Shown one piece after another: positions 819 through 35,050 of a stretch of DNA of 51,485 nt; position 1 is the first letter of the stretch, and each line of letters opens with the position of its first letter. The stretch lies in assembly GCA_013201405.1 (NCBI GenBank), contig JABMJC010000003.1, positions 1-51,485 on the forward strand, given 5' to 3'. This stretch comes from Desulfobulbaceae bacterium (lineage in GTDB: Bacteria > Desulfobacterota > Desulfobulbia > Desulfobulbales > Desulfobulbaceae). The notes beneath the pieces were generated by a model. It worked only from the letters and a program-made list of their open reading frames with translations. It was not told the DNA's origin and ran no database searches. The translations under genes were made by a program, and so were the position numbers.

Positions 819-1718
819 TTAACCTTTCAAGGCTTCGGCGCCACCGACTATATCCAGGAGCTCATTGGTGACAGCGGCCTGGCGTGCCTTGTTGTACAGC
901 TGAGTCAACTCTTGGATCATATCCTTGCAAGCCTTGGTGGCGTTATCCATGGCGGTCATGCGTGCCGCCTGCTCACTGGCGCCGACTTCAAGCAAGGCGT
1001 GAAAAACTTGTACATTCAAAAAAAGTGGTAACAGACCGGTCATGATTTCGTTTGCATCTGGCTCAAACGAGTATGCACCTGAAGCACCTGCCGCAGCAGT
1101 GGGGGTGGCGTCGGCTTCAACCTCGGCACTAACAACAGGTTTGATGGGCAAGAGGGTCTCTACCTCAGGCCTTTGAATGGCCATGGAGATAAACTTGCCG
1201 TAGACAATGTCCACCTGATCGGTTGCGCCACTGAGAAAGGTCTCGGTCACGGCTTTGGCGATATCACGGGCGTTGAACATCTGAAAGCTGGCCATGATGT
1301 CATTGAACTGCGCACGCAGTAGACCGGTTTTACGAAAATATCGGGTCGCCTTTCTACCGACCGTGACAAAGCTGACCTGCTTGCCTGCTGCCTCGTATTG
1401 CTTGCGCAGCCGCTCCGCTGTACGGATAATGTTGGAGTTGAAGCTCCCGGCCAAACCGCGATCCGAGGTGACCACCAGGATTTCCACAGTCTTGACTTCG
1501 CGCTCCTCCATTAAAGGTAAAGCGCCTGCTTCGGCATCCTGACCACTGGACAATTCGCGCATTACGTCGGTAAACTTGGCCGTGTAGGGCCGAAAGTCTT
1601 CCATTCTTTTCTGGGCACTGCGCAACTTCGCCGAAGCCACCATGTACATGGTCTTGGTGATTTGGGCAGTCTTGGTGATGCCGTTTATCTTATTTTTGAC
1701 TTCCTTGAGTCCTGCCAT
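819..1718 (-). CDS. atpG: F1Fo ATP synthase subunit gamma
   Basis: Central rotating stalk of F1, which couples proton flow through Fo to the three beta catalytic sites. At 299 residues it is close to the usual 285-300. The N-terminal helix MAGLKEVKNKINGITKTAQITK and a C-terminal helix ending in RQAAVTNELLDIVGGAEAL are the family's signature coiled-coil ends. The middle carries VTSDRGLAGSFNSNI, the conserved Rossmann-like core start. Between residues about 200 and 215 there is a short Ala/Thr-rich insertion (DATPTAAAGASGA) of the kind that varies between species. It lies between atpA and atpD in the standard order and is certainly co-transcribed with them. Confidence 0.98.
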   Translation of the reverse strand: MAGLKEVKNKINGITKTAQITKTMYMVASAKLRSAQKRMEDFRPYTAKFTDVMRELSSGQDAEAGALPLMEEREVKTVEILVVTSDRGLAGSFNSNIIRTAERLRKQYEAAGKQVSFVTVGRKATRYFRKTGLLRAQFNDIMASFQMFNARDIAKAVTETFLSGATDQVDIVYGKFISMAIQRPEVETLLPIKPVVSAEVEADATPTAAAGASGAYSFEPDANEIMTGLLPLFLNVQVFHALLEVGASEQAARMTAMDNATKACKDMIQELTQLYNKARQAAVTNELLDIVGGAEALKG

Positions 1719-1770
1719 ACGTTGATTCCCTGTCTGTATTCAAGCTCAATTCAGGCCCTTGCTTCAGTCC

Positions 1771-3294
1771 TCAATGCAGACCTTTGGTCGCCTTGAAGGT
1801 TTCACCAAAGGAGCTGAGCACCTTTTTCATTTTCTCCTCCAGCTCCGGCGAAATGGCCTGTTTTTCACGGAGTTCTTCAAAAATACCTGCCTCGTTGGCT
1901 TCGATGAAGGTGTACAATTCCTGCTCGTAGTCGCGCAGGGACTCAACGGGGAGCTTATCCAGGAAACCCTTGGTGCCGGCAAAAATGATGGTGACCTGTT
2001 TTTCCATGGGCAGCGGTTGGTATTGGGGCTGCTTGAGAATTTCCACCAGGCGTTCGCCACGGGTGAGCTGGGCTTGGGTGGCGGCATCCAAATCAGAACC
2101 AAAGCCAGCAAAAGCGGCCAGTTCGCGGTATTGTGCCAAGTCGAGGCGCAGGGTACCGGCCACCTGCTTCATGGCCTTAACCTGGGCTGCACCACCAACA
2201 CGGGATACGGAAAGACCAACGTTGATAGCCGGCCGCACACCTGCAAAGAACAGGCTCGGCTCCAGGTAGACCTGACCATCGGTAATGGAAATAACGTTGG
2301 TGGGAATAAAGGCAGATACGTCGCCAGCCTGGGTCTCGATAATGGGCAGGGCGGTCAGAGAGCCTGCGCCCAGCTCGTCGTTGAGTTTGGCAGCGCGTTC
2401 CAAGAGGCGCGAGTGGTTGAAAAAGATGTCGCCTGGATAGGCTTCGCGACCTGGCGGGCGGCGCAGCAGCAGGGACAACTCACGGTAGGAGACTGCCTGT
2501 TTGGAAAGATCGTCATAAATGATGAGTGCATGCTGGCCATTATCGCGGAAGTACTCGCCCATGGCGCAACCGGCAAAGGCAGATACGTACTGCATCGGCG
2601 CAGGGTCTGAGGCACAGGCCGCGACCACGGTGGTGTAATCCATGGCACCGTGTTTGCGCAGCGCCTCGACCACCAGGGCAACCGTGGACTGCTTTTGACC
2701 GATGGCCACATAGATACAGTGGATATCGGAATCTTTTTGGGCAATGATGGCATCCACGCACAGGGCCGTCTTACCGATCTGCCGGTCGCCAATCACCAGT
2801 TCGCGTTGACCACGACCCACCGGAGTCATGGCATCCACAGCCTTTGCACCAGTGTAACAGGGCTCGTGTACGCTTTTCCTGGCGATTACCCCAGGGGCCA
2901 GCACTTCGATCTTGCGGGTCTCTTTGGCGTTGATCGGTCCTTTGCCATCAATGGGCTGACCAATGCCGTCCACCACCCTGCCTTCCATTTCCGGACCAAC
3001 AGGAACCTCGGCAATGCGACCGGTGCGCTTGACCACGTCGCCTTCCTTGATTTCGCGGACATCACCCAGAACGGCGCAACCCACGTTGTCTTCTTCCAGG
3101 TTCAGGGCAAGGCCAAAAATATTACCGGGGAACTCGAGCAACTCCATAGCCTGGCAGTTCTCGACACCATATATACGGGCAATACCGTCGCCAACAGAAA
3201 GAACGGTGCCGGTTTCCTTGAGGTCTATTTCCTTGGTGTAGCCAGCTATCTGATCTTTAATAATCTGGCTGATCTCTTCGGCTTTGATCTGCAT
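1771..3294 (-). CDS. atpA: F1Fo ATP synthase subunit alpha
   Basis: Non-catalytic nucleotide-binding subunit of the F1 hexamer. It is 507 residues, normal for the family. The Walker A motif GDRQIGKT is at residues 169-176, and the alpha/beta signature [17 protein letters not shown] is visible near residue 370. The start [16 protein letters not shown] is typical, including the N-terminal helix that binds the delta subunit. It begins three bases after the atpH stop, so the two are translationally linked. A long open frame on the opposite strand here (1759-2610) is a shadow of this gene. Confidence 0.98.
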
Positions 3295-24288: not shown

Positions 24289-24762
24289 CTACAGAGAGGC
24301 GATGGTATTCAGCAGATCTTGGAGCCGGGCTGCTTCGATGTCGGGCTCTGGTGCCAACTCCTTTGCCAGGGTGCCAATGCATTGGTGCAGGACTGCAAAG
24401 GTTTTCGAGAAGGCGGCTTGTATGGTAGCTTCATTCCCCTGAACCTTGGCCGGATCGGGCATACCCCAGTGACTGCGTACAACGCTGCCGAAATACAGCG
24501 GGCAGGACTCGGCTGCTGCGCTGGCGCACAGGGTGATCACCGCATCCGGCTTCTGCGGTAGGTCGTGCCATGATTTGCTGGCCAGCCCTTCTGTGGGAAG
24601 TCCGGCCTTTTGAAGAACAGTCAGGGCGCGGGAATGGACGAAACCTGTGGGCTGGCTGCCGGCGCTTTGTCCGGTCACACCAGGTGGAGCCATGGACTGC
24701 AACAGGGCTTCCGCGATAATGGAGCGACAGGAATTGCCTGTACACAGAAAGAGGATATTCAT
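24289..24762 (-). CDS. arsC: Arsenate reductase, low-molecular-weight phosphatase (thioredoxin-linked) type
   Basis: Reduces arsenate to arsenite in the cytoplasm. It is 157 residues. The P-loop FLCTGNSCRS gives the nucleophile Cys7, and the relay cysteines Cys79 and Cys87 lie in TLCASAAAESCP, matching the three-cysteine thioredoxin-coupled enzymes of the S. aureus pI258 type. HWGMPDP is the family's conserved Asp loop. It starts eight bases after arsM. Confidence 0.93.
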   Translation of the reverse strand: MNILFLCTGNSCRSIIAEALLQSMAPPGVTGQSAGSQPTGFVHSRALTVLQKAGLPTEGLASKSWHDLPQKPDAVITLCASAAAESCPLYFGSVVRSHWGMPDPAKVQGNEATIQAAFSKTFAVLHQCIGTLAKELAPEPDIEAARLQDLLNTIASL

Positions 24763-24770
24763 GGCAGCTG

Positions 24771-25607
24771 CTATTTTTGGGCGGCAATGGACAGGCTGAT
24801 CACGTAGTCGGCCAGTTCTCTGCCTGGTGGCAGGGCCTGTGCTATTGTCGCATACAGTGAATTGTTCCAGCTCTGCATGTGGCGCACATAATCCGGCTTG
24901 GGAGTGAGTTCAATGGAGCTGAATCCTACCTGTTCAAGGAGGGTTTTTGTTTCCTCAACCAGCAGGGCGCCGGCAACGCAACCCACCAGTGCTTCAGCCA
25001 TATTGCGGATGCCTTTGGGGAGTGGTTTGAGCAGGGCCAGATCCGACACAGCCACTGCGCCGCCCGGTTTCAGCACCCGGAAAATTTCCTTCCACACCTG
25101 TGCCTTATCTGGTGAAAGGTTGATGACACAGTTGGAGAGCACCACATCAATGCTGGTGTCGGCCACTGGCAGGTGTTCTATTTCTCCCAGGCGAAATTCC
25201 ACGTTGTCAAGCCCGCTGTGCTCTTGGTAGCGTTTGATATTGTTTCGGGCCTTGCTCAACATTTCCGGCGTCATGTCCACACCAATCACCCGGCCGTTTT
25301 TGCCAACCTGTACCCCGGCCTGAAAAACATCAAAACCACCGCCACTGCCCAGATCAAGCACAGTTTGTCCTTCTTGCAGCGCAGCCATGGCAACAGGGTT
25401 GCCGCAGGAAAGGCCCATGTTGGCGCCGTCGGGCACCAGGGCAAGGTTGCTGGCATCATAGCCCACAGAAAGTGCCAGGCGTTGTGGATCTACCTGGCAG
25501 CCAGTGCTGCAGCATGACGACTGCAGCCCGGTGGCAATGGCTGCGTAGCTACTGCGGATAGTCTCCCGCAGTGTCTCTTGATCTGTGCTCTGCTTGTTTT
25601 GTTCCAC
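24771..25607 (-). CDS. arsM: Arsenite S-adenosylmethionine methyltransferase
   Basis: Methylates arsenite stepwise using S-adenosylmethionine. It is 278 residues. The SAM-binding motif is VLDLGSGGGFDVF (84-96), and the cysteines expected of ArsM are present: Cys32/Cys33 in SSCCSTGC, Cys68 in GLSCGNP, Cys160 in LSNCVINLSPDK, and Cys210 in VGCVAGAL. The 50-residue spacing of the last two equals that of the studied algal enzyme. The start is GTG, with GGAGAG six or seven bases ahead. It is followed closely by arsC and preceded by arsR. Confidence 0.94.
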   Translation of the reverse strand: MEQNKQSTDQETLRETIRSSYAAIATGLQSSCCSTGCQVDPQRLALSVGYDASNLALVPDGANMGLSCGNPVAMAALQEGQTVLDLGSGGGFDVFQAGVQVGKNGRVIGVDMTPEMLSKARNNIKRYQEHSGLDNVEFRLGEIEHLPVADTSIDVVLSNCVINLSPDKAQVWKEIFRVLKPGGAVAVSDLALLKPLPKGIRNMAEALVGCVAGALLVEETKTLLEQVGFSSIELTPKPDYVRHMQSWNNSLYATIAQALPPGRELADYVISLSIAAQK

Positions 25608-25628
25608 TGTTCGCTCTCCGTGTGCACG

Positions 25629-25663
25629 TTGATATGATAGTTCAAGAACTATTGATATGTCAA
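25629..25663 (-). promoter_or_regulatory. Candidate ArsR operator region upstream of arsM
   Basis: The 71-base gap between arsR and arsM holds a perfect inverted repeat ATAGTTC-AA-GAACTAT (25637-25652), flanked by two direct copies of TTGATATG (25629-25636 and 25652-25659). The second belongs to the near-palindrome TTGATATGTCAA (25652-25663), which resembles a sequence upstream of arsR (26069-26082). Confidence 0.45.
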
Positions 25664-25678
25664 TTTAAAAAAATACCC

Positions 25679-26047
25679 TCAGCCTTCATCTGTTGGATCA
25701 CACTGGGGCAAGATCGCCTGGGAAACAGCACTGGCTGCACGGTACCTGCGGCACTGTTCGGGATTACTGGCACAACATTCCGAGGTGAGATAGGCTACGA
25801 TATCCAGCATAAGGGGAATGTTTGCCCTGTAGCGCAAGAACCTGCCCTCCTTTTCCACTGAAACCAGGTCAGCGTGCAACAGGGTCTTGAGGTGGAAGGA
25901 AAGATTGGTATTCGTGACCTCGAGGATTTGGGCGATTTCACCCGCTACCAGGCCTTCGGGCGCATGCTTGACCAACAGGCGGAACAGGTCCAGTCGTACT
26001 TCTGCAGACAGAGCCATGAAGATGTTGGTCGCCTCTTTTGTTTCCAT
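25679..26047 (-). CDS. arsR: ArsR-family arsenic-responsive repressor with C-terminal Cys triad
   Basis: Winged-helix metalloregulator of about 122 residues. The HTH region reads LVAGEIAQILEVTNTNLSFHLKTLLHADLV. Three cysteines lie in the C-terminal helix (TSECCASNPEQCR), the arrangement reported for the Acidithiobacillus ferrooxidans ArsR, where CysCys plus a third Cys bind arsenite. This differs from the classical CxC in the DNA-binding helix. The ATG at 26047 is used; a TTG five codons upstream (26062) is equally open and neither has a clear ribosome binding site. First gene of the cluster. Confidence 0.93.
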   Translation of the reverse strand: METKEATNIFMALSAEVRLDLFRLLVKHAPEGLVAGEIAQILEVTNTNLSFHLKTLLHADLVSVEKEGRFLRYRANIPLMLDIVAYLTSECCASNPEQCRRYRAASAVSQAILPQCDPTDEG

Positions 26048-26068
26048 ATGGCTATGGTTCAAATTTTA

Positions 26069-26313: not shown

Positions 26314-27036
26314 TTACTTGCCCATATTGGCCAATGCGAATTCCCAGTTAATCAGTTTGTCGATCACCGCTTTAACGTAATCGGGACGCAGGTTTTGGTA
26401 GTCGAGGTAGTAGGCGTGCTCCCACACATCAATGGTGAGCAGTGGTTTGGCGTCTGTGGTCAGCGGTGTTTCGGCGTTGCCCGTTTTGGTAACCTCCAGC
26501 TTATCGCCCTTGAGCACCAGCCAGGCCCAGCCGCTGCCGAACTGCGAGGTGGCGGCCGCAGTCAGCTCCTTGATGCAGGTTTCCACATCGCCAAAGGAGT
26601 CCTGCATTTTCTTCTTCAACTCATCCGGCGGGGTGCCGCCGCCCTTGGGTTTCATGCTCTGCCAGTAGAAGGTGTGGTTCCATACCTGGGCGGCATTGTT
26701 GAAAATACCGCTGTGTTCCTGCTTGCCGGCAGTGGCGGTGATGATTTTCTCCAGGGGCTGGCCTGCGAACTCGCCGCCGGCAATCAGCTTGTTGAGATTG
26801 GTGACATAGCCCTGATGGTGCTTGCCATAGTGGAAACCAATGGTCTTTGCCGAAATGACCGGTTCCAGGGCATTGTCGGCATAGGGCAGGGCGGGTAGAG
26901 TAAAGGCTCCGTTGCCTGCGCTGACGGAGCCGGGAAATCCGCCAAAGGCAGCAGTGGCAGCCAAGGCTGAAGATGCCGCCAGAAAGGTGCGGCGGTCGAT
27001 TCCGGTTCTTGTGGGTCCATTACCGTTACTGTGCAT
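26314..27036 (-). CDS. sodB: Tat-exported iron-type superoxide dismutase
   Basis: Converts superoxide to peroxide and oxygen. It is 240 residues: a twin-arginine signal ([17 protein letters not shown]) and then a full Fe/Mn SOD. The metal ligands are His69 ([11 protein letters not shown]), His121 (WNHTFYW), and Asp203 with His207 ([11 protein letters not shown]). The [11 protein letters not shown] and FGSGWAWLV runs favour the iron form. Export by Tat after folding puts it in the periplasm, as in other sulfate reducers. It follows the radical SAM gene by 75 bases and is closed by a strong terminator. Confidence 0.94.
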
Positions 27037-27111: not shown

Positions 27112-28233
27112 TTACAGCCAGTGGAGGGATCGGTCAAGCATTGCCGGGATACCACCTCGCTCAATGGGGGAAAACCCGAAGACCTCCCGCCAAACCGTAT
27201 CGTTTTCCATGCAGAAATACAGGCAGGTGCTGGGCGCAACATGGCACTTGAGCTCGCGGACGATGAAGCGATACATGGCGACCCGTTCGCTTCTGAAGTA
27301 GCGACGCTTGCCATCGAGCCCGTCGATAAACGGTTGATAGAAGAAACGGGAGAAGGGAAAGCGCGCAGCTGCAATTTGTTTCAGACTCGGGAGATAGCGC
27401 AGGGCGCCCAGGCTGATCCAGGCGATGGCCTCGGCAGGAACAGTGGCAAAGAGCTGCCGGATGGTGTTTTGATAGCCTTCCTGCCAGCCAGGGTGCAAGA
27501 TAATGGGATCAAAATGAAAGGCCAGGCGATATCCCCACGAGGCGCAGTGGCGTGCAGCATTAAGCCGCTGTGCCAGCGTGGCTGTGCGTAGCTCTTCCTG
27601 GTGCATGATGGCCGGACTGTTGAGTGACCAGGCCACAATGGTGCGACCGCAGTGGTCAAGATGTTGCAGGTTGGCAATATTGGCACTTTTTGTTTGCAGT
27701 TCCAGCACGGCGTTGGCCTGCTGGCCGATAAAGGGCACCAGTTTACTGCTGAAATGGGTGAGTCGGTCCAGGGCAAGGCTGTCGGTGAATTCACCAGTAC
27801 CAATGCGGAAGAGTTGTTCCGACCGGGCAGCGAGTTTGCTGGCCAGTTCGCTGAACAGGTCTTCCACATTGACAAAGAAACTGAGCCAGGGATTGTTGAG
27901 ATACGACTGGAGGATGCAATAAACACAGTCCATGGGGCAATTCATGCCGATATTGAGTACCTGATAGTCGCAACAACGGTATTCCTTGGTGCCGGGACAG
28001 GGTTTGAAAAAGGCGCCCCGGTTGGCGCAAAGCACAAGATGCCGTTTGCCTGCGCTCAGATTGGCAGGATACACGCCGGCAATATCAGGGCAGTCCCGCT
28101 CGCCGATAATTTGCACCGGCAGGCCGCTGCGGGCGATGATCTCCTGGGTATAGGGTAAATGCAGGCAGTCGCTGGCCACGTGCAGCTGGCGGATGATGGC
28201 CGCTGGATCGGCGGCAAGGTGCAGGCTGTTCAT
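27112..28233 (-). CDS. Spore photoproduct lyase-family radical SAM protein
   Basis: A 373-residue radical SAM protein of the SPL type. The [4Fe-4S]-binding motif CxxxCxxC is at Cys99, Cys103 and Cys106 (NCPMDCVYC), inside the SPL-typical context CCDYQVLNIGMNCPMDC. GTGEFTDSLALD, ELQTKSANI and VAWSLNSP are further family runs. In spore formers SPL repairs the UV thymine dimer; in this non-sporing lineage the substrate is not known, though DNA repair is the natural guess. It lies ten bases after the glycosyltransferase gene. Confidence 0.88.
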   Translation of the reverse strand: MNSLHLAADPAAIIRQLHVASDCLHLPYTQEIIARSGLPVQIIGERDCPDIAGVYPANLSAGKRHLVLCANRGAFFKPCPGTKEYRCCDYQVLNIGMNCPMDCVYCILQSYLNNPWLSFFVNVEDLFSELASKLAARSEQLFRIGTGEFTDSLALDRLTHFSSKLVPFIGQQANAVLELQTKSANIANLQHLDHCGRTIVAWSLNSPAIMHQEELRTATLAQRLNAARHCASWGYRLAFHFDPIILHPGWQEGYQNTIRQLFATVPAEAIAWISLGALRYLPSLKQIAAARFPFSRFFYQPFIDGLDGKRRYFRSERVAMYRFIVRELKCHVAPSTCLYFCMENDTVWREVFGFSPIERGGIPAMLDRSLHWL

Positions 28234-28243
28234 GCTGAGTCAT

Positions 28244-29113
28244 TCATGCAGACAGGTGTGCTGGACGAGGCAATTGACACTGTGCCTGATACTGTGCGGC
28301 CAAATCGAGGTACTTGTTGCCTTCATCGTGTCTGCCGTGCTTGCTGCAGCCCCGGCCATATAGGATACATTTATGAGCCAGTTCCCGGCGGGCAGCTGCA
28401 TCTTGGGCGGGATTGAGGCTTTTAGAGTCGACAAGCTTTTTCAGGGAACTGATGCGGTATTGGTCCATACCCATGCGGTGGATGGCGGAGAGTTGATCTG
28501 ACCTGCCACCGTCCTTAACGGTGAGTGCTGTCGGCACCAGCAGGAAGGATTCTTGTCGGGCAAGGCGTAGCCACAGGTCGTAGTCCTCGCAGCACGGCAG
28601 GCTTTCATCAAAGCCGCCGTAGCGTTGGAAGAGCTCTCGCTTGGCCATGACCGTTGACATCCCCACCACACAAAACCCCAGGCTGCGCACAAAGATATCG
28701 CCGTCCGGCGGGTCGTGCTTCTTTTTCTGGTTGACCCGCTGGCCACGTCGGTACCAGATTTCCCGAGTATGGGCAATGGGGCACTGCGGCTGGTATTGCA
28801 TGGCTGTACGCTGTTGCATCAGCTTGTGGGGCAACCACCAGTCATCATCGTCAAGAAAGGCAACATAGTCTCCCTGGGCCAGTTCAAGGCCGGCATTGCG
28901 TGCTGCGGCTGCTCCCCGGTTTTTTTGGTAAATAATGTGCAGAGGCAGGGGGGACTGGCGCTTTATCTGCTTGAGTAGCGCTGCGGTGCCATCTTGAGAG
29001 CCGTCATCCACCACAATCAGCTCATCGCAGGGCATGCTCTGGGCAAAGACCGAATGAAGGGCCCGCGTAAGCAGATGTGCCCGGTTGAAGGTGGGAATGA
29101 TGACCGACAACAT
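28244..29113 (-). CDS. Family 2 glycosyltransferase
   Basis: A 289-residue GT-A fold transferase. The N-terminus MLSVIIPTFNRAHLLTRAL, the nucleotide-sugar loop VVDDGSQDGT and the metal-binding DDDD run (FLDDDDWWLPHKL) are diagnostic, and CCEDYDLWLRLARQ gives the acceptor-side ED motif. There is no membrane helix. The C-terminal 80 residues are helical. Sugar and acceptor are unknown, probably a surface glycan. It is an odd first gene for a transcript that continues into an SPL-type enzyme and SOD. Confidence 0.9.
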   Translation of the reverse strand: MLSVIIPTFNRAHLLTRALHSVFAQSMPCDELIVVDDGSQDGTAALLKQIKRQSPLPLHIIYQKNRGAAAARNAGLELAQGDYVAFLDDDDWWLPHKLMQQRTAMQYQPQCPIAHTREIWYRRGQRVNQKKKHDPPDGDIFVRSLGFCVVGMSTVMAKRELFQRYGGFDESLPCCEDYDLWLRLARQESFLLVPTALTVKDGGRSDQLSAIHRMGMDQYRISSLKKLVDSKSLNPAQDAAARRELAHKCILYGRGCSKHGRHDEGNKYLDLAAQYQAQCQLPRPAHLSA

Positions 29114-29166
29114 CGTTTTGTATCGCCTCAGTCAATCTGGTTGTGACAGGTTATTATGATTTTCTG

Positions 29167-29207
29167 CTGACGTTTAGGCCGAGACATGCTATATAAAATC
29201 ATTTTAT
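29167..29207 (+). promoter_or_regulatory. Candidate rng promoter overlapped by a 7-1-7 palindrome
   Basis: CTGACG (29167-29172), 17 bases, TATATA (29190-29195). The perfect palindrome ATAAAAT-C-ATTTTAT (29193-29207) overlaps the -10. Its 7-1-7 architecture recalls Fur/PerR boxes, but the sequence is only a partial match to either. Confidence 0.4.
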
Positions 29208-29280
29208 CCATATATGATTCGCTCCTGCGGCCCAGCAAGAATTGTCCGCACCATCGTCTGTTGTCACGATACCAGCCAGC

Positions 29281-30786
29281 ATGTTCACCGATATCCTCAT
29301 CAACGCCACTACCTATGAGAACCGTATTGCCCTGATGGAGAACGGTTCCTTGCGGGAGTTTTATCTTGACCGGCCGGCGCAGAAGGGGCTGATCGGCAAT
29401 ATCTACCTGGGCCGAGTTGTGCGGGTTTTGCCGGGCATTGACGCGGCCTTTATCGATATCGGGCTTGAGCGCACCGGTTTTTTGTATGTGGACGAGGCAG
29501 TATATGCCCTGGCCGACAGTTACCGGCACCTTCATTCCGACCAGCAAAAAGAGCTGGGCCTGCCCGGAGTGTTTCCCCACGGCCTCACCATAGACAAGAT
29601 CGTACGCGAAGGACAAGAAATTTTAGTACAGATCGCCAAAGAACCCATTGGCTCCAAGGGCGCGCGTTTGACCTGCAATATTACGCTACCCTGCCGTAAT
29701 CTTGTCTACATGCCCCTCACCGACCACATCGGCATCTCCCGCAAGATCGAAGACGAGACTATCCGCCAGCAACTGCGCGACCGCATCGAAGAGTTGCGGC
29801 CGCCGGGTGCAGGCTTCATCATGCGCACCGTGGCGGAGAACACCTGCAATGAGGAACTGGAAGCAGATATGGAGTTTCTCCTGCTGCTTTGGGATGATAT
29901 CCTGGCCAAATCGAAAAAATCCACAGCACCTGAACGAATCTACAAGGATCTAGACATCATCCTCCGCACAGTGCGCGACTTTTTCACCGATGACATCAAC
30001 GAGGTGGTCACCGACAACTGCGATGTGTACGAGCAACTGTTGTCTTATGCCAAAAGCTTCATCCCGCACCTGGAAAATAAAATCAGTTATTATGACGATG
30101 ATCTGCCCCTTTTTGAGCGCTATGGTATCGAGGCAGACATCAACAGCGCGCTCGACAAGAAGGTATGGCTGCGTTCCGGTGGCTATATCATCATCGAACC
30201 CACCGAGGCGCTCACGGTCATTGATGTCAATACCGGGCGCTATGTGCATGCCAGCGACTTGGCTGCCACCATCTTCCGCACCAACATGGAGGCTGTGCAG
30301 GAGATCGCCCGACAACTGCGTTTACGCAACATTGGCGGTATCATTATCATAGATTTCATTGACATGGAGAGCGAGGAAGAGCGACAGGAACTGAGTCGGG
30401 CCTTTGAAGAGGCCATGAGCGATGACAAAAGCAAGATCAATATCCTCAAACTATCGGAATTCGGTCTGGTGCAGATGACCCGCAAGCGGCTGTCCGAGAG
30501 CATAACCCAGATGATGTGCGAACCTTGCTGCTACTGCGGTGGCGATGGGCTGATCAAGTCCCGCAGAACCATTTCGCATGAGATCTTCCGCAAGATCAGC
30601 CGGGATGCCCGCAAGATCGGCGGTTCCCATGTCACCATCAAGGTGAATCCAACCATTGCCGACATGCTTCTGCACGAAGAAACCCACAGCATCAAGCACT
30701 TGGAATGCGAGACCGGTAAACGTTTTACCATCGTCCCGGTGCCGGAACTACATGTCAAACGCTACGACATCATCTGGAATCAATAA
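29281..30786 (+). CDS. rng: Ribonuclease G
   Basis: Single-strand endoribonuclease of the RNase E/G family, acting on rRNA and mRNA. It is 501 residues, normal for RNase G and lacking the long RNase E scaffold tail. The S1 domain (GLIGNIYLGRVVRVLPGIDAAFIDIG) is N-terminal. The catalytic Asp residues lie in TVIDVNTGRYV and IIIDFIDM, and the zinc-link cysteines in CEPCCYCGGDG. I chose the ATG at 29281 because it gives the normal MFTDILIN start; a TTG 13 codons upstream is also open. It starts a plus-strand run with the M23 peptidase and lptF. Confidence 0.96.
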   Translation: MFTDILINATTYENRIALMENGSLREFYLDRPAQKGLIGNIYLGRVVRVLPGIDAAFIDIGLERTGFLYVDEAVYALADSYRHLHSDQQKELGLPGVFPHGLTIDKIVREGQEILVQIAKEPIGSKGARLTCNITLPCRNLVYMPLTDHIGISRKIEDETIRQQLRDRIEELRPPGAGFIMRTVAENTCNEELEADMEFLLLLWDDILAKSKKSTAPERIYKDLDIILRTVRDFFTDDINEVVTDNCDVYEQLLSYAKSFIPHLENKISYYDDDLPLFERYGIEADINSALDKKVWLRSGGYIIIEPTEALTVIDVNTGRYVHASDLAATIFRTNMEAVQEIARQLRLRNIGGIIIIDFIDMESEEERQELSRAFEEAMSDDKSKINILKLSEFGLVQMTRKRLSESITQMMCEPCCYCGGDGLIKSRRTISHEIFRKISRDARKIGGSHVTIKVNPTIADMLLHEETHSIKHLECETGKRFTIVPVPELHVKRYDIIWNQ

Positions 30787-30830: not shown

Positions 30831-32201
30831 ATGGCACGGAACCGGCGTTTAGGCAGATCCTCCGGTGGAGGTTTTTTGCGCGCAGTTTTTTTTCTGATCC
30901 TCTCCCTGGCCGGGATGGCGGCATTGGCCACGGCCTATTTTGTCTTTGAATTCGAACGACCAAGCCTGAGCCTGGGCAAAGAGGTACAGACCCTTGGTGC
31001 CAGCGTGGATATGCCGTTGAGTGCACAAGACAAGAAAAGCGGACTGCGCCTGATCAACATCACCTTGATCCAGGGAGAAAAAAGCGAGGTAGTTTTTGAA
31101 AAGCAGTTTCCCCGTCAGGGTTGGTTCAATAATGCCGGGCCCAAGGAGTTCAACGAAAAGGTGACCATCAAGGCAAAGGAGGCCGGCTTTGCGGAGGGAG
31201 CAGCCAAGCTGGTCATTACCCTGCGCGATCAATCGCTCATGGGTTTTTTGCGTGGCAACAAGACGGTGCAGACCATGGCGGTCACCATCGACACCACCCC
31301 GCCTACGCTGAGCATTGTTGATCCCAGGCGTTATATTCAGCCAGGCGGTAGCGCGGTCATTGCGTATACAGTTTCAGAAGCACCCGCTCGCCATGGCGTG
31401 CAGATTGGCGAAACCTTTTTTCCCGGTTTTCCGGGCACAAAAGAAGGCCTCTACTTGGCCTATTTTGCCCTGCCCTGGGATGCCAAGGAAACCGGATCCA
31501 CAGCCGTGGTTGCCTACGACGCTGCAGGCAATGAGGCCAAGGCCGGATTCAGCGCTGTTTTGAGACCGGTGCGCGAGAAGCGTGACACCATTACCTTGAG
31601 CGACAACTTCCTGCAGCAGAAGATGCCCGAATTCAAACACCACTACCCGGAAATGGAGGGTGATCTGTTGACCCAGTATCTTTATGTCAACGATACTGTC
31701 CGCCAGCGCAACGCAGAGAAGATTGCGGCCATTTGCGCCACTCCTGTGGCCGAGCAGTTGTGGAGCGACCGATTTCTGCGCATGCCCGGCGCAAACAGGG
31801 CTGGTTTTGCCGACCAGCGCACCTATTTGTATCAGGGCAAGGCAGTGGACAAGCAAACCCATCTCGGCGTGGATATCGCTTCCACTGCCCAGGCGGAGGT
31901 GAGGGCTGCCAACCGAGGCAAGGTGGTTTTTGCAGAATATCTGGGTATTTATGGTAATGTCGTCATCCTTGATCATGGCCAGGGGCTCTTCAGCCTCTAC
32001 TCTCACCTGAACAGCATCGAGGCCAGTATGGGCGCACTGGTGGACAAAAATCAGGCCATTGGCCGCACCGGCACCAGCGGTATGGCTGGAGGAGATCACC
32101 TCCACTTCTCCATGCTGGTTCATGGTATTTTTGTTACCCCCATCGAATGGTGGGATCAGCGCTGGATCGATGTCAACATCAAGGCAGCCGTGAATGGATA
32201 A
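30831..32201 (+). CDS. Membrane-anchored M23 (LytM-type) peptidase
   Basis: A 456-residue protein with one N-terminal membrane helix (about residues 14-40) and a large periplasmic part. The first 220 residues look beta-rich and include an Ig-like stretch (TTPPTLSIVDPRRYIQPGGSAVIAYTV). The C-terminal third is a zinc endopeptidase of the lysostaphin/LytM type: THLGVDIAS gives the first His and the Asp, and YSHLNS and GGDHLHFSM the remaining histidines. It would cut peptide cross-links of murein. It overlaps lptF by eight bases. Confidence 0.9.
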   Translation: MARNRRLGRSSGGGFLRAVFFLILSLAGMAALATAYFVFEFERPSLSLGKEVQTLGASVDMPLSAQDKKSGLRLINITLIQGEKSEVVFEKQFPRQGWFNNAGPKEFNEKVTIKAKEAGFAEGAAKLVITLRDQSLMGFLRGNKTVQTMAVTIDTTPPTLSIVDPRRYIQPGGSAVIAYTVSEAPARHGVQIGETFFPGFPGTKEGLYLAYFALPWDAKETGSTAVVAYDAAGNEAKAGFSAVLRPVREKRDTITLSDNFLQQKMPEFKHHYPEMEGDLLTQYLYVNDTVRQRNAEKIAAICATPVAEQLWSDRFLRMPGANRAGFADQRTYLYQGKAVDKQTHLGVDIASTAQAEVRAANRGKVVFAEYLGIYGNVVILDHGQGLFSLYSHLNSIEASMGALVDKNQAIGRTGTSGMAGGDHLHFSMLVHGIFVTPIEWWDQRWIDVNIKAAVNG

Positions 32202-33660
32202 ATCCCGCTGTTGGCCGGATATGGTGTCGCAGTTGAGACGTCCTCCCTTTCTGCTCTACAGCTATATCGCTGCAGAAATGCTGGCACCTTTTTTTGCCAG
32301 CTTTGTCATCCTCTATGGGATCTTCTTTCTGATGCAGCTCATTCCCCTGCTGGAGGTTGTGCTAGCTCTGCGCATCGGACTGGCTGATTTCATTCGCATA
32401 ACCTCCTATCTCTTCCCCCACATGCTGCTCTATATCATTCCCATGGCCAGTATGACCGGAGTGATTATTGGTTTTTCCCGGTTGGCCAACGACCGGGAAA
32501 TCCTTGCCTTCAAGGCCTGTGGGGTCAGCCTCAGGCAGATGCTGCCACCGGTTTTGGTCATCACTGCGGTGATAGCCATTGTTACTGGCTATTTTTCCAT
32601 ACGTCTTATTCCCTTGGGTGAGGTGGGCATGAAGCAGCTTATGTTCCAACTGGCCAAGGAAAAGATCGACAAGGGACTCAAGGAAAAGGAGTTCACCGAG
32701 GCCCTGGGCGACCTGGTGGTGTATGTGGATGAAATTGATGACGACCAGGAATGGCGCGGAGTGTATGTCTCGGATATGCGGGGTCGCTTGCAACCGCTGA
32801 TCACCATGGCCAAGTCTGGCCGGCTGAGTTCTGATGTCGAACGGATGCAGGTGGTGGTGGAGTTGGAGGATGGCACCCTGCACAATGTCGATGACCTGGA
32901 TAACCAGGTGCTCCGCTTCAAGCGCTATCAGTTGCAGATTCCCCTGCGGCCGCCTGGTGGTGAAGATTTGGACAAACTCAGCCGAGGCTCCATGACCCAA
33001 ACCCAGCTGTTGGAAGCGGCCCGGGAAGCTGGGCCCAACAGCAAGGAAGGTCTGAGTTATCGATCCGAATACCACCACCGCTTGATCATGCCGGTGGGCT
33101 GTTTCATCCTGAGCCTGATTGGCTTGCCATTGGCCCTGCAGGCTGGTCCCGGGATGCGGGCTGTGGGTGTGCCACTGGGACTGCTTGTTTTTGTCAGTTA
33201 CTATATTGCCTTCACCATTACCCGGGTCTTAAGCGAAGAAGGTACATTGCCCCTGCTTTTGGGCATGTGGCTGCCCAACATTCTCTTTTTGCTTTTTGGC
33301 ATGTACTTTTTGTGGCGAGTTGACCAGGAACGACCACTTTTGCCGGAACAGGTGCATGCTGCCTTGCTCGTTCGTTATGAACGGTATGTCCGCCCGCTGC
33401 TCCGCAGGTTGAGAAAGAGGACAGGCGCACTTCTGTTCAAGTTGCTGGGTCGGCGGGCAGGCAGTGTGGGCGGAATGGCAACCGGAGAGGGACTGCTTAT
33501 CCATGCTAATGTGCATACACGCACCTTCCATTTGCCGGAATGTGCGCAGTACAACTCGCCCCAATGCCGCATTGAGTTCAAGGATGTTAAGGTTGCACGG
33601 CAGGCGGGTTTTCATCCCTGCGGTTTCTGCGCCACCCTGCTGGATCAGGATAGACAATGA
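32194..33660 (+). CDS. lptF: LPS export permease LptF/LptG family, fused to a C-terminal Ada-like zinc mini-domain
   Basis: Inner-membrane permease that extracts LPS for the Lpt bridge. It is 488 residues. Three helices precede (residues about 20-125) and three follow (about 300-380) a beta-rich periplasmic domain, as in LptF/G. FSRLANDREILAFKACGVSL is the coupling helix that meets LptB. After a basic linker (about 390-425) comes an extra domain with His446, Cys450, Cys476 and Cys479 in the pattern FHLPEC...AGFHPCGFC, which resembles the Ada-type zinc-binding fold also seen appended to nucleases. That tail is not part of the normal LptF. No second permease (LptG) is adjacent. Confidence 0.88.
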   Translation: MDKSRCWPDMVSQLRRPPFLLYSYIAAEMLAPFFASFVILYGIFFLMQLIPLLEVVLALRIGLADFIRITSYLFPHMLLYIIPMASMTGVIIGFSRLANDREILAFKACGVSLRQMLPPVLVITAVIAIVTGYFSIRLIPLGEVGMKQLMFQLAKEKIDKGLKEKEFTEALGDLVVYVDEIDDDQEWRGVYVSDMRGRLQPLITMAKSGRLSSDVERMQVVVELEDGTLHNVDDLDNQVLRFKRYQLQIPLRPPGGEDLDKLSRGSMTQTQLLEAAREAGPNSKEGLSYRSEYHHRLIMPVGCFILSLIGLPLALQAGPGMRAVGVPLGLLVFVSYYIAFTITRVLSEEGTLPLLLGMWLPNILFLLFGMYFLWRVDQERPLLPEQVHAALLVRYERYVRPLLRRLRKRTGALLFKLLGRRAGSVGGMATGEGLLIHANVHTRTFHLPECAQYNSPQCRIEFKDVKVARQAGFHPCGFCATLLDQDRQ

Positions 33661-34297
33661 ACCACCTGTTCAGACTGACTGTTTCTCTGCTGCTCTTTTT
33701 TTCATTGGCCGTAGTATTGCTTGGGAGCAGATGGCGCAGGGCCTGCTTTTCCTTTCGGCCTGGATGTTGGTAGCTGCGCTCTGCCTGCAACTGACCAGTG
33801 CTGCACAGCTGCGCTGCGCTGGAGTTTGGTCATGCGCAGCTTAGGGATTCCAGCAGGTTTTTTCTATCTGGCCATCCTGTACGGGCTGGCTGGTTTCCTT
33901 GTTTTCAACGCAAGGGCCTTTGGGCTGTGCTGGGTAGACTTTCTAGACGCTTCCAACAGGCCAATGCCACGCCTGTTCTTTTTTTGGAACAGCTCGGCCT
34001 TACCCTGTTGACCCACCTGCTGGCCATACTTGCCTTTTATGTTTTGGCCACGGGCCTGGGACTGCGCTATCCCTTTTCGGTCTGCCTGATCCTGGTGCCC
34101 TCTGCGCTCTTGTTGACGACCTTGCCATCTCCCTGGCAGGCTGGGGGGTGCGTGAAGGGGCGCTCGTGGGATTGTTTGTTTTGATAGAAGTGGCCAAGGC
34201 TTCAGTGCTCACCTGTTCTCTGCTCTACGGCATCAACAATCTGATGGCATCCCTGCCAGGGTTGGTTGTGTATTTGCGCCAGCGTGTCAGGGTATGA
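33657..34297 (+). pseudogene. Decayed flippase-like membrane protein (lysylphosphatidylglycerol synthase TM-domain family)
   Basis: Remains of a multi-helix membrane protein in the UPF0104/flippase-like family, spread over all three frames. The order is: a first helix with an ATG overlapping the lptF stop, a second piece ending LTSAAQLRW, SLGIPAGFFYLAILYGLAGFL, then LGLTLLTHLLAILAFYVLATGLG, then the family hallmark ISLAGWGVREGALVG and a terminal helix. At about 34126 a single lost base explains the change between LLLTTLP and ISLAGWGVREG. The middle of the gene (the GGD and DR region) is missing, roughly 100 codons. No intact reading frame remains. Confidence 0.82.
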
Positions 34298-35050
34298 ATA
34301 CAGAGATGCCTAATGTGTACATGGTGCGGTCATGCACATTGACACCATGCGGCGAATAGACCTCTGGGCAGGTATTCCACTCACCTTTTTGCTGACCCTG
34401 GTGCTCAGGGTGGTCGAGCTGCTCAGCCCCACACAAAAGAGGCAGCCGCCCAGGCGGGTCTTGTGTGTGGAACTCTCAGAGATGGGTTCCACCATCTGGC
34501 CGATCCAGCCATGCGCAAACTGCGCCGTGAACTCGGCTGCGAGCTGTACTTTGCCATCTTTGCCAGTAACCGGGCCAGCCTGGATCTATGGCAGACGATT
34601 CCCGTGGCCAACATCTACACCCTGCGGGCAGACAACCTGTGGTTATTGGCCACCGATACCCTGAAGTTTTTACTGTGGACAGGAAAAACCGCATTGATAC
34701 GGTGCTGGATCTTGAGTTGTTTTTCCGCTTTATTGCCCTGCCCAACCCGGCTGGTTTTTACCGCTTCCACAATGAGGGTCTCTACCGGGGGAAATGCTGA
34801 CCCACCGGGCCTGCTACAATCCCCATATCCATATTACCAAGAATTTCATTGCGTTGGCCAATACACTTATGGTGGAGCAGGAGGAATTGCCCTATTCCAA
34901 ACGTATATTGGCGATGAGGAAATCGTACTGCCCTGTGTCAGTGCTACCAATCACAGCAAGACCTCCTGTACTGACAATGCCTGCCTTAAGGCCATAAGCG
35001 TGGACCAGGTCTTCACCGCAGTACAGCCACTCTTGCAGACTAAGCCGTAG
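34294..35050 (+). pseudogene. Decayed family 9 glycosyltransferase (heptosyltransferase-like)
   Basis: Remains of a GT9 enzyme in four frame segments. RRVLCVELSEMGSTI changes frame near 34497 to LADPAMRKLRRELG; near 34680 LKFLLWT changes to RKNRIDTVLDLELFFRF; near 34790 a G-run one base short changes NEGLYRG to EMLTHRACYNPHIHI. Each step is explained by one lost base. After KNFIALANTLM the central ADP-sugar-binding part is missing, and only the C-terminal LPCVSATNHSKTSCTDNACLKAISVDQVF remains, ending at 35050. The ATG at 34294 overlaps the stop of the preceding pseudogene, so both once formed one operon with lptF. Confidence 0.85.

Follow-up and report, generated by a model that had tools for sequence, protein, structure and literature searches.

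The lptF gene and its surroundings

The window, i.e. the whole stretch of 51,485 nucleotides of Desulfobulbaceae DNA that was analysed, contains an lptF gene at 32194..33660 (+ strand, stop included), an open frame of 488 amino acids. The permease core, residues 24-375 of the product (32263..33318, +), matches the Pfam family LptF_LptG with an E-value of 5.5e-79. The NCBIfam model of LptF (TIGR04407) gives 247.8 bits against a cut-off of 230 and is covered from position 2 to 347 of 347, as opposed to the LptG model, which gives 140.8 bits on the same protein and stays under its cut-off of 240; judged by these model scores, the permease is LptF specifically. Its hydrophobic runs fit six transmembrane helices with a periplasmic jellyroll, and LptF proteins of the PDB can be aligned to it. 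The PDB matches (ten distinct sequences) are 362-375 amino acids long and their alignment stops by residue 374-375; the window LptF goes on for 113 residues beyond residue 375. After the last transmembrane helix there is a basic juxtamembrane linker (residues 376-431, 33319..33486, +), which is fast evolving, followed by a compact domain (approximately residues 432-482, 33487..33639, +). The region singled out in the original prediction, 33490-33660, covers this domain, with the linker just before it, and the residue numbers given there (His446, Cys450, Cys476 and Cys479) are correct. The statement that the tail is not part of the known Lpt machine agrees with the absence of a counterpart in the ten PDB sequences. 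This machine is usually described as consisting of seven parts (PMC12387048).

The genome of the window (2.46 Mb, 99.99% complete) encodes a second LptF_LptG protein (G000:C181:4971-6023, 198.8 bits), which we named LptG because the protein encoded beside lptF elsewhere can be aligned to it. The LptG of this genome (384 amino acids) is located on another contig and has no such tail. In the known structures the C terminus of LptF is cytoplasmic and lies beside LptB. The tail of the window LptF should therefore be cytoplasmic, and the side proposed originally is thus probable by homology to LptF proteins of known structure. The full-length AF2 model (three sequences) is poor (pLDDT 44) and gives no placement of the tail relative to the membrane or to LptB.

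In the window and in the eleven other stretches of the two main families that were inspected, lptF follows an M23 peptidase gene, and none of these stretches contains lptG; an RNase E/G gene is also upstream wherever the stretch reaches. Other DNA separates the peptidase gene from lptF in the tail-less genomes L181 and L182 of the f12 family. The block that is often retained with lptF in the two families lies at 27115-30783 in the window; a spore-photoproduct-lyase-like radical SAM gene and a family 2 glycosyltransferase gene are on one strand, RNase E/G is on the other, then come the M23 peptidase and lptF. On the 3' side of lptF, NAD(P)H-hydrate dehydratase and CBS-domain genes are present in 8 out of 12 stretches (window included). 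Directly 3' of lptF, the window contains broken remnants of LPG_synthase_TM and glycosyltransferase family 9 genes (33661-35047, +), scattered pieces in several frames; both genes are intact at the same place in G023 (L095). Further upstream are an iron/manganese superoxide dismutase with a possible twin-arginine signal (26317-27036, -; Pfam match below cut-off) and, in a row, an ArsR-type regulator, a methyltransferase and a low-molecular-weight phosphatase-family protein (24292-26062, -), which we take to resemble a small arsenic cluster. The idea that the fusion merely accompanied the separation of lptF from lptG is not supported: the fused lptF still adjoins lptG in G036, G064 and G611, so the domain does not depend on this move.

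The C-terminal mini-domain

The tail of the window LptF contains the motifs FHLPEC (His446, Cys450) and AGFHPCGFC (Cys476, Cys479) with Cys458 between them. The match to Ada_Zn_binding (PF02805) proposed originally is marginal: the tail alone scores 23.0-23.1 bits (E 8e-5), just at the gathering cut-off of 23, and the full protein reaches 17.9 bits (E 0.0032). The NCBIfam sunset model (NF051437) gives 29.8-30.2 bits with the tail alone and 24.8 with the full protein, the domain cut-off being 27. When 32 LptF tails were compared with the two families at an E-value of 0.001 or better, 26 matched sunset and 20 matched Ada_Zn_binding. The LptF tail is the sole Ada_Zn_binding match of note in the genome of the window (the other match has an E-value of 0.98). 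The motif by itself is modest evidence, and H-x3-C...C-x2-C was retained in 856 out of 200,000 shufflings of the domain's own residues; the domain rises above chance because it is conserved in relatives and is under purifying selection.

A template-free AF2 model of the tail (three sequences) reached a pLDDT of 77 in the best of five models (40-60 in the others) and a pTM of 0.60. Compared with the PDB, it matched four chains at E-values up to 10, all of them E. coli N-Ada, though with weak scores (Foldseek E 0.36-2.3, VIA Z 3.1-5.3). When the tail sequence was searched against the PDB, the hits were eight ovomucoid-type chains (best E 0.19), none of them a zinc relative. A profile of 53 LptF tails aligned to residues 28-74 of E. 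coli Ada with 27 bits. Judging from the family scores, this alignment and the predicted fold, the tail looks like an Ada/sunset-type mini-domain. The fusion of LptF to such a domain, as originally proposed, is thus borne out by the TIGR04407 score over the cut-off, the Ada and sunset scores and the alignment to Ada; a zinc fold is matched as well, in structure weakly and by N-Ada chains only, and by sunset over the cut-off with the tail alone but not with the full protein.

In the register of the profile alignment, His446 (33529..33531, +) falls on Ada Cys38, and Cys450 (33541..33543, +), Cys476 (33619..33621, +) and Cys479 (33628..33630, +) fall on Cys42, Cys69 and Cys72, respectively. On the basis of alignment and conservation we predict these four residues to be metal ligands. 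All four are retained in 53 out of 53 fused LptFs of the tree set described below; the scoring pattern itself requires them, and the control is that the other LptFs of the set end 15-51 residues past residue 376. Cys458 (33565..33567, +) is found in 92% of the 53 fused LptFs and is probably not a required ligand, since it is common but not universal. The fused LptF of G064 also keeps the four ligands, and the middle Cys is absent. Cys38 of Ada accepts the methyl group and also binds the zinc together with three other Cys (PMC10814553). As His446 stands at the position of this methyl acceptor, the tail cannot do the chemistry of Ada, and an Ada-type repair enzyme is ruled out. The four-Cys zinc site of Ada is likewise not reproduced; of the four aligned positions one is His and the others are Cys, so zinc may be bound by a His-Cys3 site.

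The linker that precedes the domain holds a strongly amphipathic basic stretch, LLVRYERYVRPLLRRLRK, with a hydrophobic moment of 0.76, and from its sequence this stretch could lie on the membrane. It is not special to the fusion, since LptFs that have no tail domain also end basic, with a mean charge of +3.0, the same as that of the linkers.

Distribution and evolution of the fusion

An LptF match at E 1e-6 was found in 240 out of 257 genomes of the order, and in 139 of the 257 the domain lies within the LptF frame, so the extension is not absent from close relatives of the window. By family, the fusion is present in 63 out of 73 genomes of the window's family, 74 out of 93 of the second family (f12) and 2 out of 12 of a third (f4); these counts are hand tallies of rows in which doubtful fragments were rechecked. 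They include short frames of 285-429 amino acids (G017, G092, G096, G169 and G171) and one case split over two contigs (G077). An LptF core beside the domain or on the same frame was confirmed in G017, G096, G169, G171 and G077; the frame of G096 has one break, inside the core. LptF stops short of the domain in all the un-fused genomes inspected, 3 out of 10 of the window's family and 9 out of 19 of the second family; others have no LptF match. In nine families of the order (f3-f9, f13 and f14, one to four LptFs each) the tail-less LptFs that were inspected end early. The spread of the fusion, the conservation of the ligands and the purifying selection lead us to reject a chance read-through.

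In a draw of 395 genomes from the phylum, the domain was found in 84, 75 of them outside the order. Hits were classed as LptF or not by frame length, except for the long frames of G611 and G479 that were inspected directly; the former is an LptF, the latter is not. The LptF core was absent from 21 further loci (L063-L083, including a 1480-aa frame). There is thus at least one fused LptF outside the order, that of G611, and as at most 17 candidates were scored per genome, more fusions may exist. Nine other genomes of the order of G611 match its LptF no further than residue 407 of 481, short of the domain, and therefore this fusion looks independent. The gene of this fusion (L084) is at 1636-3081 (-), with lptG directly downstream. 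L048 (G018) has no LptF-like matches other than very distant ones (best E 9.9e-9), which lie within an lptF-lptG-like pair that is possibly foreign DNA in the assembly.

We built a quick tree of the permease core from 78 hand-picked rows, 53 fused and 25 tail-less LptFs; 21 rows were chosen for being tail-less, and hence 25 out of 78 is not a frequency. G064 was left out, and L043 and L084 form long branches. The tail changes at least 9 times on this tree and 7 of the changes are forced by well-supported branches; the tree does not distinguish gain from loss. The tail-less proteins of L028, L032 and L034 are nested in the genus of the window and end inside the linker; these look like losses. 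No half-decayed domain was seen in any of the 25 tail-less LptFs. Remnants of the domain 3' of tail-less lptF genes were not found in the 11 out of 12 loci that were long enough to search (best 1.6 bits), which is a weak test as only 3 of the 12 loci held 900 bases and the other 9 held 39-512. As close relatives have an LptF without the domain, the tail has no core role.

Over 30 LptFs, the mean pairwise identity is highest in the core (0.65), lower in the domain (0.46) and lowest in the linker (0.21). When the window is compared with its three nearest relatives, dN/dS comes to 0.02-0.04 for the domain, 0.05-0.10 for the core and 0.11-0.33 for the linker (defined in two of three pairs). The domain is thus under purifying selection in the window's own clade, where it is constrained more tightly than the core. 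This is not uniform elsewhere: the pair L022/L024 is an exception with a value of 1.2 for the domain, and in L015/L020 the domain (0.086 vs 0.061 for the core) is under no tighter constraint. Several dS values in the analysis are high or undefined.

Possible role of the tail and comparison with known systems

We propose, with middling confidence, that the tail is a non-catalytic, probably zinc-stapled accessory docking module on the cytoplasmic face of LptB2FG. In this view, a single metal ion, probably zinc, held by His446, Cys450, Cys476 and Cys479 would staple a small fold of the Ada type. This fold would be connected to the last transmembrane helix of LptF by a basic and partly amphipathic linker (about 50-70 residues), which could rest on the inner leaflet. 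The fold would dock onto a protein, possibly the adjacent LptB ATPase, and adjust the ATPase activity or the stability of the complex. Alternatively, the target could be a cytosolic or peripheral LPS-assembly protein that would be brought to the exporter in this way. In all this we infer the zinc, the cytoplasmic side, the docking and the choice of partner.

The surface of the domain is informative in this respect. The mean net charge of the LptF tails is +0.7 (n=53) vs +4.7 for Ada-type domains on other proteins of the phylum (n=26; 28 were tried, and L036 and L041 were dropped as they do not have the pattern). The Mann-Whitney P is about 1e-7 for sequences that are related and not independent, and the difference could reflect ancestry. 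Positions 460, 461, 465 and 467 are hydrophobic or acidic in the LptF tails, as opposed to Ala, mixed, Arg and Glu/Ala, respectively, in the others; position 463 runs opposite, with Lys in 67% of the LptF tails. The lower charge and the hydrophobic or acidic positions therefore favour protein binding over nucleic acid binding. We give correspondingly little credence to a nucleic-acid tether, in which an Ada-like affinity for DNA, or a contact with RNA or the ribosome like that of sunset on ribosomal proteins, would anchor the exporter to the nucleoid or to ribosomes. The relatives of the domain on Ada, nucleases and ribosomal proteins and the basic linker would suit such a tether, but the charge of the domain itself is near neutral and the methyl-acceptor switch of Ada is absent.

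The original prediction left a choice between sensing of zinc or redox state and tethering of a partner, of which tethering, i.e. docking, most likely fits best. In a sensor, a metal-thiolate site would gain or lose zinc, or be oxidised, and shift LPS export with the zinc or redox state. The habitats of the group are anaerobic and sulfide-rich, which makes such a sensor plausible, and the conserved Cys/His site, the extra Cys458 of most members and the position of the site, by homology next to an ATPase, would agree with it. We nevertheless consider it unlikely. SNase-family nucleases of related genomes carry Ada-type domains (3 out of 4 tested match both families) with the same fold and ligands, on frames whose N termini are signal-peptide-like as judged by eye, so the site appears to be structural. 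In addition, some members lack Cys458, and the incidental findings hold no link to zinc or redox genes. Somewhat less probable still is a tolerated mobile C-terminal tag that shuffles among proteins and is passed on by inheritance, doing little or nothing more than stabilising the C terminus. The presence of the domain on unrelated proteins, the scatter of tail-less among tailed LptFs on the tree and the lack of downstream traces where these could be searched all point that way, but a mere tag would not be expected to be retained in most genomes of two families, nor to be under stronger purifying selection than the permease core in the window's clade while the linker drifts. The ~200-aa proteins encoded in L039 (1044-1661, -) and L040 (574-1170, +) have the same Ada-type C-terminal domain, and the N-terminal part of the former has no Pfam match. 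A replacement for LapB, or a tether of it, is very improbable. This zinc-ribbon LPS-assembly protein is cytoplasmic, with a rubredoxin-type domain and a part in LpxC control (PMC12387048), which would suit such a role. The replacement is not supported, since the LapB zinc-ribbon family, which also matches Gram-positive controls and is not specific for LapB, occurs in 223 out of 257 genomes of the order, tailed and tail-less alike, that of the window included.

If the tail is indeed a docking module, a conserved domain on the cytoplasmic side, apparently gained more than once, would mean that in some bacteria the exporter itself carries an added element for control or docking. We can also speculate, though we hold it doubtful, that two families of the order (probably Desulfobulbaceae and a sister family) control LPS export directly from the cytoplasm, with the tail as a metal- or thiol-switched gate or a recruitment platform that couples LptB2FG to a cytosolic signal and evolved at least twice. 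To our knowledge, such a layer of Lpt regulation is not known in any model organism. In practical terms, the tail offers a ready handle, a 60-residue bait, for proteins that address Lpt from the cytoplasm. No LptF-Ada fusion was seen in the titles or abstract openings among the literature matches listed, and the one paper that contains the term 'sunset domain' deals with libraries. What we describe is a combination of known parts that the literature search did not show, conserved and apparently recurrent.

It is worthwhile to compare the fusion with the systems from which its parts are known. The LptF of LptB2FG (E. coli and others; PDB 6mjp, 6mit, 6mhu) has the same permease core, and its partner LptG is encoded in the genome of the window, but the window LptF has the 113-residue tail added to a protein that is 362-375 amino acids long in the PDB-matched chains. 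The N-terminal zinc domain of Ada (PF02805; PDB 1u8b, 1zgw, 1wpk, 1adn) resembles the tail in fold, by a weak model match, and has three of its four ligand Cys in register with it; in the tail, however, Cys38 is replaced by His, no DNA-binding or methyltransferase domain follows, and the domain is on a membrane transporter. The sunset domain (NF051437), known from ribosomal proteins and ArfC, is likewise an add-on to conserved proteins, and the tail alone is above its domain cut-off, though none of the variants matched (ArfC, L20, L17, L4, S2) is an LptF. The SNase-family nucleases of related genomes have the H-C-(C)-C-C pattern, the length and the C-terminal place of the domain in common with the LptF tail. 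The host proteins are different: the nucleases are probably secreted enzymes with a domain that is more basic on average, while LptF is a permease of the inner membrane.
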